A stretch of 64,000 nucleotides of DNA, from the NCBI RefSeq assembly GCF_023093535.1, contig NZ_CP095757.1, positions 2,294,001 through 2,358,000 on the forward strand. The letters run 5' to 3'. This document shows positions 13,325-41,945 of this stretch, one piece after another (the first letter of the stretch is position 1; the number at the start of each line of letters is the position of its first letter). Below the pieces are notes generated by a model. That model saw nothing but the letters and a program-made list of their open reading frames with translations, did no database searches and had not been told where the DNA came from. The translations under genes and the position numbers were made by a program. The DNA is from Halovivax limisalsi (GTDB taxonomy: Archaea > Halobacteriota > Halobacteria > Halobacteriales > Natrialbaceae).

Positions 13325-15796
13325 CTACTCCGAATCGGAGCCGTCCGGAGCGAGCGAGAGGACGTCCACGCTCGCGACGGCGTCCTCTGAGTCGACGTCC
13401 ATCACGGTGACGCCCATCGTGTTTCGCCCGACCGTGGAGATCTCGCCCGCGCGCGTTCGCATGATCTGGCCGCGTTCGCTCATGATGACCAGGTGGTCCT
13501 CCGGCGTCACGGCCTTCAGCGCGGTCACCGGACCGTTCCGGTCTTCGGTCTTGATGTCGATGAGACCCTTGCCGTAGCGCGACTGGGTGCGGTACTCGGA
13601 GAGGAGCGTTCGCTTGCCGTAGCCGTTCTCGGTGACCGTCAACAGGGCGCGGTCGTCGCCGGCGTCCGTGGCGACGAGCCCGGCGACGGCGTCGCCGTCC
13701 TCGAGATCGATGCCGTTGACGCCGCGGGCGTTGCGCCCCATCGCGCGCGCTTCGGTCTCGTCGAAGCGGATGGTCATGCCCCGCTCGGTCCCGATGACGA
13801 GGTCTTTCGTGCCGTCGGTCACCTCGACGTCGACGAGCGCGTCGCCCGCCTCGAGCGAGGCGGCGATGATGCCCGTCGTGAGGATGTTGTCGAACTCGTC
13901 GCCGCAGGTCCGCTTGACGTAGCCGTTTCGCGTGACCATCGTCACGTACTCGTCGTCGCCGAAGGCGTCCGTGTCGACGATGGCCGTGAGTTCCTCGCCC
14001 GGATCGAGGTCGAGGATGTTGACCGCGGACTTGCCCCGGGCCGTCCGGCTCATTTCGGGGATCTCGTAGGCCTTGAGCTGGTAGACCTGGCCCTGATTGG
14101 TGAAACAGAGCAGGTAGTCGTGGGTGTTGGCCTGGAAGACGGTCGTCACCCGATCGCCCTCCTTGACGTCGCAGCCGATGATGCCCTTCCCGCCGCGACC
14201 CTGCGGGTCGAAGTTCGAGACGGGCATGCGCTTGACGTAATCGTCCTCGGTCATGACGATGAGGACCTCTTCTTCGGGAATGAGATCCTCGTGCGTGACG
14301 GTGCCGACGTCCTCGATGATCGAGGTGCGCCGATCGTCATCGTACTCGTCCTTGATCGCCCGGAGCTCGTCCGTGATGACCTCGAGCAACCGCGATTCGT
14401 TCTCCAGGATCTCGGTCAGGTGCTCGATTTCGGCCTGGACGTCCTCGTACTCCTCCTTTATCTCGGCGGCCTCCATGTTGGTGAGGCTGCCGAGTTGCAT
14501 GCGGACGATGTGGGCCGCCTGCATCTCGGAGAAGCCGAACTCGTTCTCGAGGCCGGTGCGGGCCTCGTCGCGGTTCTCGGAATTGCGGATGAGTTCGACC
14601 ACGTCGTCGATCATGTCGAGCGCCTTGAGCCGCCCTTCGAGGATGTGGGCGCGCTCTTCGGCTTCGGCGAGGTCGTGTTCGGAGCGTCTGCGGACGACCT
14701 CGCGGCGGTGGGAGACGTACTCCTCCAGGGTCTCCTTCAGCGTCAGGACCTGCGGTTGCCCGTCGACCAGCGCGAGATTGATGACGCCGAAGGTCTTCTC
14801 GAGGTGGTTCTCGAGCAGCCGGTTCTTGACGATCTCCGTGTTCGCGCCGCGCTTGAGTTCGACGACGATCCGGACGCCGTTGCGGTCGGACTCGTCGCGC
14901 AGGTCGGAGATCCCCTCGATGACGCCCTCGTTGACGTCGTCGGCGATCCGCTCGACCAGCTTCGCCTTGTTCTGCTGGTAGGGCAGCTCCGTGATGACGA
15001 TGCGATCGCGATCGGGTTTCCAGTCTTCGACCTCGAACTCCGCGCGGACGCGGATGCGACCGCGGCCGGTCTTGTACGCCGAGTAGATGGCGTCCCGGCC
15101 GACGATGTTCGCCCCCGTCGGGAAGTCGGGCCCTTTGACGTGCTCCATCAGGTCCTCGACGGTGGCCTCGGGGTTCTCGATCAACTCGATCGTCGCGTCG
15201 ATCACCTCGCCGAGGTTGTGCGGCGGGATGTTCGTCGACATGCCGACCGCGATCCCCGACGAGCCGTTGACCAGCAGGTTGGGAAACGCCGAGGGAAGCA
15301 CCGTCGGTTCCTGCAGGCGATCGTCGTAGTTCGCCTGGAAGTCGATCGTGTCCTTCTCGATGTCGGTCAGCAACTCCTCGGCGATGGGGGCCATCCGGGC
15401 CTCCGTGTACCGCGGGGCGGCCGGCGGGTCGCCGTCCATCGACCCGAAGTTGCCCTGGCCGTCGACCAGCGGGTAGCGCATCGAGAAGTCCTGGGCCATC
15501 CGCACCAGCGCGTCGTAGATCGGACTGTCGCCGTGGGGGTGGTAGTCACCCATCGTCTCGCCCACCACGGACGAGGACTTGCGGTGACTCGACCCGCTGG
15601 TGACGCCCATCTCGTGCATCGCGTACAGAATCCGCCGGTGGACGGGTTTCAGCCCGTCCCGCACGTCCGGCAGGGCCCGTCCCGCGATGACGCTCATCGC
15701 GTAGTCGATGTAACTCTGCTCCATCTCGTCTTCGATCCGAACGGTCTCGACCGTCCGGGCGTCGACGTCCGTCGGATCCGGGGCTTCAGAACTCAT
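13325..15796 (-). CDS. gyrA: DNA gyrase subunit A
   Basis: GyrA is the DNA cleavage and wrapping subunit of gyrase, which introduces negative supercoils using ATP. The 823-residue protein has the catalytic tyrosine in APRYTEARM (Tyr130). It has an intact quinolone-region motif [13 protein letters not shown], with Ser91 and Asp95 at the positions of E. coli Ser83 and Asp87. It also has a GyrA box QGRGGKG at 532-538, which separates true gyrase from topoisomerase IV. The C-terminal half contains the repeated blades of the DNA-wrapping beta-pinwheel. It lies downstream of gyrB on the same strand, separated by a 300-base hairpin-rich spacer, and is probably cotranscribed with it. Confidence 0.98.
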
Positions 15797-15800
15797 ATCT

Positions 15801-16080
15801 CAAAATCTTGGGTTCGTTAGCGTTCGGCTCGGTGGCGGCGCTGGCAGTCGTCTCAACTGGTGCGGTAGCGGTAGTTCTCAGGCTGTTCCACCGCGAGCGC
15901 GGCCGCCTTGCGGCCGCGCGAGCGGGCCGACGACCGGTGTGGTAGCCGCGCTTCGCGCGGCTGTAACGGAGGGAGGAGTGCTTTTCATCGAAGCTGAGCG
16001 GGATCGAAGATCCCGCGATGTCCAAAAGAGCCGTACGGCTCTTTTGAAGATTTTGCCGAGGGCGCGCCGGAGGCGCGCCC
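15801..16080 (-). other. Multi-hairpin element between gyrB and gyrA, candidate structured RNA
   Basis: The gyrB-gyrA spacer holds five perfect stem-loops. They are 15897-15919 (10-bp stem, 3-base loop, extended by 4 more pairs to 15891-15925 across a mismatch), 15944-15962 (8 bp, 3-base loop), 15998-16016 (8 bp, 3-base loop), 16024-16045 (an uninterrupted 22-base palindrome) and 16060-16080 (9 bp, 3-base loop). In addition caaaatctt at 15801-15809 and aagattttg at 16047-16055 form a 9-bp inverted repeat about 240 bases apart that encloses four of the hairpins. In the gyrBA transcript this would make a closed multi-branch structure ending a few bases before the gyrA ATG. No convincing protein is encoded here. 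It could be a structured RNA, an mRNA processing site or a repeated intergenic element. Confidence 0.6.
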
Positions 16081-16096
16081 GCAGCGCAAAAGTTCG

Positions 16097-18334
<2,238 letters not shown>

Positions 18335-38241: not shown

Positions 38242-39135
38242 ATGTTCGAGCGTCTCGACCGGGCTCGGGAGGGCGCGGACGGCGGCTTCGGGCCGGTCGA
38301 TCGAGCCCAGCTCGCGTTGCTGCTCGAGGTGGCTGGGACGCCGAAACCGGGGAACGTCGATCGCTCCCGCGATCTCGCCGAGCTCCGGTTCGAGCACTTT
38401 CTCGCGGGTGCCGTCGGAGTCAGGGCGGGCCTCGACCGGGCCGCCGCGGGCGAACCGATCGGGACGTCGTTCGAGCGGGCGGTCGCGGGGATGACTCGGT
38501 TCGCCGGACGAAACACCCAGTTCGGGTCGCTGCTGTTGCTCGTCCCGCTCGTTTCGGCGGCGCGAGGCGGACTGGACCGGTCGAGCGTCGAACGCGCAGT
38601 CTCGGAGACGACGGTCGACGACGCCGCCGCGTTTTACCGGGCGTTCGAGCACGTGTCGGTCGCCGTCGACGAGCCGCCGGCGGACGCCGCCGCCCTCGAC
38701 GCTCGCCGGGGTGCCGACGCGATTCCCGCGGTTCGGGACCGCGGGCTCGACCTGCGATCGGTGCTGGAACTGGGAGTCCCCGGAGACGACGTCGCCCGCG
38801 AGTGGGTGACCGGGTTCGAACGGTCGTACGACGCGGCGCGGCGGCTCTCGGTCGCCGACGGTCCGCTGCAGGATCGCGTCGCGTCCGTCTTCCTGGAGTT
38901 ACTGGCCGAGCGGCCGGATACCCTCGTTTCGATCCGCCACGGCGAGTCGGTCGCCGCCGAGGTCCGCAAACGGGCGCGCGACCTCGTCGAACGGGGCGCG
39001 TTCGAGCGGGATCGCGACGCGGTCGAGACGTTCGCGACCGAGCTCGTCGAGCGAGGGATCAACCCCGGAACCACGGCGGATCTGACCGCCGCCGGACTGT
39101 TCATCCGCCTGGAGGGCGGACCCGTAGATCGATGA
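38242..39135 (+). CDS. Triphosphoribosyl-dephospho-CoA synthase (CitG/MdcB)-like protein
   Basis: The 297-residue helical protein has the CitG signature LLEVAGTPKPGNVDRSRDL near residues 27-45. It also has NTQFGSLLLLVPLVSAA, the conserved substrate-binding segment, and DTLVSIRHG towards the end. Bacterial CitG makes the prosthetic-group precursor of citrate lyase from dephospho-CoA and ATP. No citrate or malonate lyase genes are nearby, so a different phosphoribosyl-type or cofactor reaction is likely. It follows the flavin TIM-barrel gene by 28 bases and precedes a DUF447 gene. Confidence 0.8.
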   Translation: MFERLDRAREGADGGFGPVDRAQLALLLEVAGTPKPGNVDRSRDLAELRFEHFLAGAVGVRAGLDRAAAGEPIGTSFERAVAGMTRFAGRNTQFGSLLLLVPLVSAARGGLDRSSVERAVSETTVDDAAAFYRAFEHVSVAVDEPPADAAALDARRGADAIPAVRDRGLDLRSVLELGVPGDDVAREWVTGFERSYDAARRLSVADGPLQDRVASVFLELLAERPDTLVSIRHGESVAAEVRKRARDLVERGAFERDRDAVETFATELVERGINPGTTADLTAAGLFIRLEGGPVDR

Positions 39136-39169
39136 GTGGACCGAACGTCGATCCGACACCGATCGAACG

Positions 39170-40910: not shown

Positions 40911-41945
40911 ATGACTGTCACCGTCGGAGTCCTCGGCGCCACCGGCGCGGTCGGACAGCGATTGGTCGAACACCTCGATCCGCACCCGCAGTTCGAGATC
41001 GCGGCCCTGACAGCGAGCGAATCGAGCGCGGGGTCGACGTATCGGGCGGCGGCGAAGTGGCGAACGGGGACGCCGATCCCGGAGGACGTCGCGGAGATGA
41101 CCGTCACGCGAACCGCGCCGTCGGCCGTTCCCGACGACGTCGACCTCCTCTTCTCGTCGCTGCCCTCCGCCGTCGGCGCCGAGGTCGAACCCGCCTTCTG
41201 CGAGGCCGGCTACGTCGTCTCCTCGAACTCGTCGAACGAGCGGATGGCCCCGGACGTGCCGCTGGTCGTCCCCGAGGTCAACGCCGAGCACCTCGACCTC
41301 TTGGAAGTCCAGCGCGACGAACGCGGGTGGGACGGCGCGCTGGTGAAAAATCCGAACTGCTCGACGATCACCTTCGTCCCGACGCTGGCCGCGCTCTCGG
41401 ACCTGGACCTCGAACGCGTCCACGTCGCGACGCTCCAGGCCGTCTCCGGCGCGGGCTACGACGGCGTCACGTCGATGGAGATCCTCGACAACGCCGTCCC
41501 CCACATCGGCGGGGAGGAGGAAAAACTCGAGACGGAGTCGCGAAAACTGCTGGGCACGTTCGACGGCGCCGAGATCGTCGAAGACTCCGTCGAGGTCGCC
41601 GCGTCGTGCAACCGGATCCCGACGCTCGACGGTCACCTCGAGAACGTCTGGATCGAGAGCGCCGAGCCGGTGTCGATCGAGGAGGTGACGACGAAGATGA
41701 CCGAGTACCCGTCCCTCCCGCTTCACTCCTCGCCGGATCAGCTCATCACCGTCTTCGACGAGCCCGACCGTCCGCAGCCCCGCCTCGATCGGGGACGCGG
41801 CGACGGGATGTCCATCTCCGTCGGCGGCTTCAAGGAGTCTCCATTCGGGGTGCAGTACAACTGCCTGGCGCACAATACGATCCGCGGCGCCGCAGGCGCG
41901 AGCCTCCTCAACGGCGAACTCCTCCTCGACCGCGGCTACCTCTAG
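40911..41945 (+). CDS. asd: Aspartate-semialdehyde dehydrogenase
   Basis: Asd reduces aspartyl phosphate to aspartate semialdehyde, the branch point to lysine, threonine and methionine. The 344-residue protein has VGVLGATGAVGQRLVEHL for NADP binding and VKNPNCSTITF with the catalytic Cys150. Next comes SGAGYDGVTSMEILDN, and a late VGGFKESPFGVQYNCLAHNT. These features match the archaeal/fungal type. The ATG at 40911 matches the conserved start. A tctatattt element at 40856-40864 would give a 5' leader of some 25 bases. Confidence 0.95.
   Translation: MTVTVGVLGATGAVGQRLVEHLDPHPQFEIAALTASESSAGSTYRAAAKWRTGTPIPEDVAEMTVTRTAPSAVPDDVDLLFSSLPSAVGAEVEPAFCEAGYVVSSNSSNERMAPDVPLVVPEVNAEHLDLLEVQRDERGWDGALVKNPNCSTITFVPTLAALSDLDLERVHVATLQAVSGAGYDGVTSMEILDNAVPHIGGEEEKLETESRKLLGTFDGAEIVEDSVEVAASCNRIPTLDGHLENVWIESAEPVSIEEVTTKMTEYPSLPLHSSPDQLITVFDEPDRPQPRLDRGRGDGMSISVGGFKESPFGVQYNCLAHNTIRGAAGASLLNGELLLDRGYL

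Follow-up and report, generated by a model that had tools for sequence, protein, structure and literature searches.

A modular, covarying hairpin element of haloarchaea that mostly follows the stop codons of housekeeping genes, including gyrB of Halovivax limisalsi

Introduction

The REP sequences and BIMEs of enterobacteria are dispersed extragenic palindromes that often lie behind genes, occur in many copies, and form modular composites. The haloarchaeal element described herein shares these properties. However, it is about 110-250 nt long, contains a long-range helix, a conserved box, and a stem with GA mismatches, and lies 0-5 nt past stop codons; a REP-type GTAG/CGTC tag was not apparent in the copies inspected. 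Pneumococcal BOX elements are modular repeats of optional hairpin units, and are set apart by description through a different module order, host, and position. MITEs are characterized by terminal inverted repeats and target-site duplications; helix P1 of the haloarchaeal element pairs its start with an internal stretch and not with the opposite end.

The nearest described repeats of haloarchaea are the PATEs and SMRs of Haloquadratum, which are likewise short, non-coding, and palindromic, with one inserted in another (PMC3119063). In PATEs, the palindromes are close to the two ends, the termini are related to those of IS605, and insertions are strain-specific (PMC3119063). The present element differs from PATEs and SMRs in anatomy and in position, being anchored to genes at positions common to genera and families. 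Archaeal T-stretch terminators resemble it in having a T-run shortly past the stop codon. In Haloferax volcanii, T-stretches terminate transcription, and one tested hairpin stopped 59% of transcripts (PMC7237163). In contrast, the T-runs of the haloarchaeal element occur on both strands and are embedded in a conserved multi-hairpin structure.

Rfam yielded chance-level matches only (E-values of 0.6 and above), none of which reached the gathering score. The element was not described in the literature found by searches without subscription journals and preprints, including PMC3119063, PMC7237163, PMC3403918, and PMC7002113. A haloarchaeal hairpin family anchored at stop codons is apparently undescribed. 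This family is large and structured, occurs in over half of the haloarchaeal species sampled, and is fixed to the stop codons of core genes.

Results

Hairpins in the gyrB-gyrA spacer

The window analyzed was a 64,000-nt stretch of the H. limisalsi genome (NZ_CP095757.1, positions 2,294,001 to 2,358,000). A preliminary description, made by reading the letters, had reported five perfect hairpins between gyrB and gyrA and had considered a chance origin unlikely. Both statements were upheld. Five perfect non-overlapping hairpins with stems of 8-10 bp were present at 15897-16080: 15897-15919 (stem of 10 bp, loop of 3 nt), 15944-15962 (8 and 3), 15998-16016 (8 and 3), 16023-16046 (10 and 4; a 24-nt palindrome), and 16060-16080 (9 and 3). 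Elsewhere in the window, 630 stretches of 304 nt were compared: 559 contained no such hairpin, 67 contained one, and 4 contained two; the maximum in 500 shuffles by two-base blocks was also two. When 15885-16100 was folded as RNA, z-scores against dinucleotide shuffles were -5.9 (plus strand) and -6.7 (minus strand).

The 9-bp inverted repeat (15801-15809 with 16047-16055) that was thought to close the array beside the gyrA start does exist; the closing role was not sustained. The arm near the gyrA start, AAGATTTTG, was missing from the gyrB-gyrA spacers of three element-bearing congeners, and a single 9-bp match per 300 nt is near chance (our estimate, about 0.2). This left arm is probably a chance match. 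The true enclosing helix is P1 (16086-16096 with 16051-16056 and 15989-15992), which is anchored on the gyrB stop codon. It begins directly past this codon, just beyond the interval initially delimited, and the real limits of the element are about 15891-16096. The coordinates of the gyr copy were set by hand; model R1 (see below) misaligns P1 in this copy because the P3/P4 module sits within P1. The parts are as follows.

15891-16096, minus strand (oriented by the flanking gene; in the family, the plus strand folds better): whole element, at the gyrB 3' end
16086-16096, minus strand: P1 5' strand CGAACTTTTGC, directly after the gyrB stop codon
16088-16091, minus strand: T4 of the gene strand, within the P1 5' strand
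16060-16080, minus strand: P2 hairpin, 9 bp, sequence variable, pairing constant
16051-16056, minus strand: P1 upper 3' strand GCAAAA, with TTTT at 16051-16054 on the plus strand
16023-16046, minus strand: P3, 24-nt palindrome, which forms an optional module with P4, inside P1
15998-16016, minus strand: P4 hairpin, 8 bp, the second hairpin of the optional module
15989-15992, minus strand: P1 lower 3' strand TTCG, whose partner is CGAA at 16093-16096, with family-wide covariation
15968-15989, minus strand: sequence-conserved box GATGAAAAGCACTCCTCCCTCC, with TTTT at 15982-15985 on the plus strand
15944-15962, minus strand: P5 hairpin, 8 bp, 3-nt loop, sequence variable
15891-15925, minus strand: P6 stem-loop CCGCTCGC..GCTCGCGG, with an internal TC/TC mismatch (GA/GA on the plus strand)
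16097-18310, minus strand: gyrB reading frame, its stop codon abutting the element and its true start inside the frame
13325-15796, minus strand: gyrA reading frame
15801-15809, minus strand: left arm of the 9-bp inverted repeat, outside the element family

Architecture and covariation

The order of the parts was constant across copies. The stop codon is followed by the P1 5' strand ([CGAA]C[TTTTTC] and variants), an internal loop, the variable hairpin P2, the upper and then the lower 3' strand of P1, the conserved box GATGAAAAGCACTCCTCCYTCC, a short outer pair with the variable hairpin P5, GGTCGTCGGCCCGC, and the stem-loop P6, which terminates in GCGG. Many copies in the taxonomic family of the window had an extra hairpin between CAGCCTTTCCCCG and CGGCCAC. 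Optional two-hairpin modules occurred at fixed joints, and P3 with P4 in the gyr spacer is one such pair. At this same spacer, the P3/P4 module was present in genomes G000 and G002 and absent in the congeners G001 and G004, in which the element itself was kept.

Model R1 (144 positions, 38 pairs) was built on 19 copies. In the R1 alignment of 106 distinct copies, which leans towards structure because it was fitted to the model, standard pairs occupied 95.6% of cells, versus only 38-48% in slid controls. Two-sided changes were found in 33 of the 38 pairs, and double-change cells numbered 680, against 177 ± 13 in shuffles. The lower part of P1, read directly from the sequences, changed on both sides (CGAA/TTCG, CAAC/GTTG, CGAC/GTCG, CAAA/TTTG, and CTAA/TTAG). 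The element is a modular, covarying structured element that is spread through haloarchaea.

Distribution

A nucleotide search with the gyr spacer returned about 30 matches in this genome and many in four congeners. The earlier suggestions of a dispersed repeat family and of a structured element shared with other haloarchaea were borne out: copies occur throughout this genome and its congeners, matches extend across the class, and the stems covary. Neither of the outcomes that would have refuted the preliminary description, namely stems without covariation or an element found nowhere else, was encountered.

R1 matches numbered 10-26 per genome in this genus, the weakest of which may be chance, and 3-48 in each genome of other taxonomic families. 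Of the 125 genomes from the family of the window, 114 had matches, as did 227 of 391 genomes of the class, representing 64 of 86 genera. In a phylum-wide sample, no R1 match was reported outside the order, to which all 26 matching genomes belonged. Four plasmid records also gave matches, and in one of these the element once more follows gyrB; phage records gave none. The Natrinema thermotolerans megaplasmid CP031304.1 (L355, 987 kb) has a gyrB and a gyrA of its own, between which the element lies, 3 nt past the annotated gyrB end. A viral origin was considered and rejected; the sole pattern match in IMG/VR was apparently ordinary coding sequence without the element. Two weak R1 matches in the window, 39031-39165 (minus strand, E 0.0085) and 41310-41419 (plus strand, E 0.026), lie inside coding frames and are probably chance.

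The gyrB gene carried the element at 6 of 30 fetched loci of the family, and further adjacent coordinate pairs at gyrB were noted in this family (for example, in G025, G028, G060, G063, G065, G075, and G083). The congener G003 had no element and a gyrB-gyrA spacer of 80 nt. Since only part of the family carries the element at gyrB, sites are gained and lost. In the element-free relatives L368 and L380, gyrB and gyrA overlap or nearly so. No TATA-like motif was seen by eye ahead of gyrA in the present genome.

Position at stop codons

Placement was judged by a crude frame test. By this test, 93 of 130 copies directly followed an open, GC3-rich frame of the same strand (6% for random positions), and P1 mostly started 0-4 nt past the stop codon among them. 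The same was true of 72 of 86 further copies, mostly from other taxonomic families (7% for random positions), and the distance to the stop codon in both sets was mostly -1 to +5 nt. Many of the remaining copies were off the stop codon because inserted modules shift the start of the model. The proteins encoded upstream cluster across genera and families, namely, the same genes carry the element. Named by eye from their C-termini, these genes encode thermosome, eIF2-beta, PAN, rpl10e, acyl-CoA dehydrogenase, FtsZ, S8e, a TrkH-like protein, and gyrB. In most cases, copies are anchored 0-5 nt past the stop codons of housekeeping genes.

A role at convergent genes, which was suggested by facing pairs of elements, was rejected because no enrichment was found in a count: element-bearing genes had 42 convergent and 49 co-directional neighbors, against 114 and 104 in the background. 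The facing pairs themselves were seen at L143, L178, L180, L215, L232, L233, and L276. Convergent pairs such as FtsZ or S8e with its neighbor have one element each, 50-180 nt apart, and are common to several species.

The folded strand

P6 consists of 2-bp steps separated by TC/TC mismatches. TC/TC was found in 158 of 159 cases at the first site, although the search pattern itself demanded the 3' TC there, and in 118 of 146 at the unconditioned second site. The pairs between the mismatches covary (GC/GC, AC/GT, and GT/AC). Read on the complementary strand, the mismatches become tandem GA/GA flanked as C-GA-G, which is the classic sheared motif. Imperfect P6 pairs were G.U 29 times on the complementary strand and once on the gene strand. 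Furthermore, with each strand compared with its own dinucleotide shuffles, the complementary strand folded 5.3 ± 0.26 kcal/mol better over 216 copies, and was the better one in 90% of them, in each of three sets. The folded molecule, RNA or single-stranded DNA, hence appears to be of the strand opposite the gene, which has the GA/GA mismatches in P6 and in 90% of copies folds better. It is consequently doubtful that the array folds within the gyrBA transcript, as had been proposed, since the better strand family-wide is the complementary one (here the plus strand of the window). The gyr copy alone showed no strand asymmetry, both strands folding about equally well.

A strand call from wobble pairs alone was abandoned: A.C exceeded G.T by 39 to 8 in the first sample and equaled it at 17 to 17 in the second, and only the P6 part was kept. 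The wobble bias outside P6 was weak, and overall it was not replicated in the second sample. G.U was scarce on both strands of the element in comparison with tRNA (31 G.U and 0 A.C in 648 cells, 4.8%, from 30 tRNAs of the same genome), and selection or exchange at the DNA level may therefore have played a part.

T-runs

TTTT was found inside the first 15 nt of 192 of 216 copies, which corresponds to the T4-T5 shortly past the stop codon of archaeal T-run terminators. Among 52 genes of the window, only 4 had T4 within 40 nt past the stop codon. At least two T4 runs occurred on the opposite strand of 196 of 216 copies and on the gene strand of 17 of 216; those on the opposite strand sit downstream of P6 and P5. 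An antisense promoter belonging to the element was rejected, as no TATA-like excess and no AT-rich peak faced it.

Discussion

We tentatively favor, with less than even confidence, the reading of the element as a transcription boundary at gene ends that bears T-runs on either strand and the hairpins of which would act mainly on opposite-strand RNA. Transcripts of the gene strand might be released at the T-run past the stop codon, with read-through permitted in operons that depend on it, such as gyrBA. RNA arriving on the opposite strand would fold P6, with its tandem sheared G.A pairs, and P5 just ahead of two T-runs, and would be released before antisense into the gene arises. In this genome, the blocked direction would be that of the plus strand of the window, from the gyrA side to gyrB. 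The tight gyrBA pair in relatives and the lack of a TATA-like motif before gyrA suggest that full termination on the gene strand would be harmful here. Together with the T-runs and the absence of a facing promoter, the tight pair favors a boundary directed mainly against opposite-strand RNA. However, several observations count against a boundary: the T-runs lie at least 12 nt from the P5 hairpin, unlike those of bacterial terminators; element-bearing genes show no enrichment for convergent neighbors; the wobble bias is weak outside P6 and G.U pairs are scarce; and the two strands of the gyr copy fold about equally well. From the observed anatomy, covariation, position, strand asymmetry, and T-runs, we infer termination, its direction, and its benefit. 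That RNA-structured "antisense stops" end opposite-strand transcription at housekeeping stop codons throughout haloarchaea while permitting gene-strand read-through is a broader claim, which we regard as rather unlikely.

The main rival is a non-autonomous mobile repeat of the REP, PATE, or SMR type. Such a repeat would transpose as single-stranded DNA, one strand being the folding one, and would persist chiefly right behind genes; IS605-type elements employ a single strand. The mobile repeat better explains dispersal (copies number in the tens in each genome), gain and loss at a given site (the gyrB copy is absent from G003 but present in congeners, and 6 of 30 gyrB loci are occupied), and the exchange of hairpin modules, and both the species-typical sequence of the copies in genome G314 and the DNA-like scarcity of G.U are in its favor. 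However, it does not explain the stop-codon precision: the distance of 0-5 nt in most copies is too tight for random insertion followed by selection because stop codons are not a common target sequence. Moreover, the same genes are occupied in different families, phage records gave no match, the lone viral match is a coding coincidence, and one of the four plasmid copies again lies behind gyrB. We consider a mobile repeat to be possible, but on balance improbable. The better folding of the complementary strand would also suit copies that are cis-antisense or small RNA genes transcribed against the flanking gene. No promoter-like signal faces the element, its last helix has no U-run behind it, and its structure is kept while sequence similarity between the stems of one copy and another is low, which makes such genes doubtful indeed.

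A structure in the 3'-UTR of the gene's own mRNA, acting in stability, processing, or translation termination, would account for the fixed place right past the stop codon and the gene-strand orientation. On that strand, however, folding is worse against shuffles in 90% of copies, the conserved mismatches are TC/TC, and P1 would be covered by the ribosome at the stop codon; we consider this reading about as doubtful as an RNA gene. Pairing at the DNA level, as a cruciform, supercoil, or gyrase site, is consistent with nearly all-Watson-Crick stems, few G.U pairs, and 3-nt loops, and BIMEs of Escherichia coli bind gyrase. Both P6 and the folding energy are strand-asymmetric and the unpaired box is conserved in sequence, and thus a double-stranded DNA feature is quite unlikely. 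Perfect, variable stems with 3-nt loops might even arise in neutral local sequence when template-switch repair maintains palindromes. This is highly improbable, because the long-range helix P1 covaries over 35-150 nt and both architecture and position are conserved across the order.

If the element sets gene ends, as in the favored boundary reading, it offers a testable handle on how Rho-less archaea bring transcription and antisense RNA to a halt, and would supply the genetics of haloarchaea with ready-made terminators or insulators. Were it mobile instead, it would be a repeat with stop-codon precision, for which a novel mechanism would be needed.

Several further features of individual copies were noted. 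P5 loops were exactly 3 bases long in 48 of 48 scored hairpins, with no single preferred sequence; this is unusual for RNA, in which tetraloops are common. The stretch GGAGG-GTG-CTT-TTC-ATC-GAA on the complementary strand of many copies was considered as a small peptide and rejected, since copies from other families no longer have the GTG and the stretch is therefore not coding. The copies of genome G314 (L303-L310) had P1 and box sequences almost identical to one another and unlike those of the related genome G159, and this near-uniformity suggests homogenization or recent spread. An insert forming a three-way junction, TGTCGTTCG(hairpin)CGTGATGACG(hairpin)CGAACCACG, recurred at the P2 joint (L008, L015, L022, and L144), and its TGATGA resembles a box C or kink-turn motif. 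A partial second P1 5' arm preceded the element in some copies, for example CGAACTTCTGCCCTG and then CAAACTTTTGCGCTG (L010 and L011, the gyrB 3' ends of G002 and G001, respectively; L138; and L008), as would be seen if a newer element had come to lie within or next to an older one.
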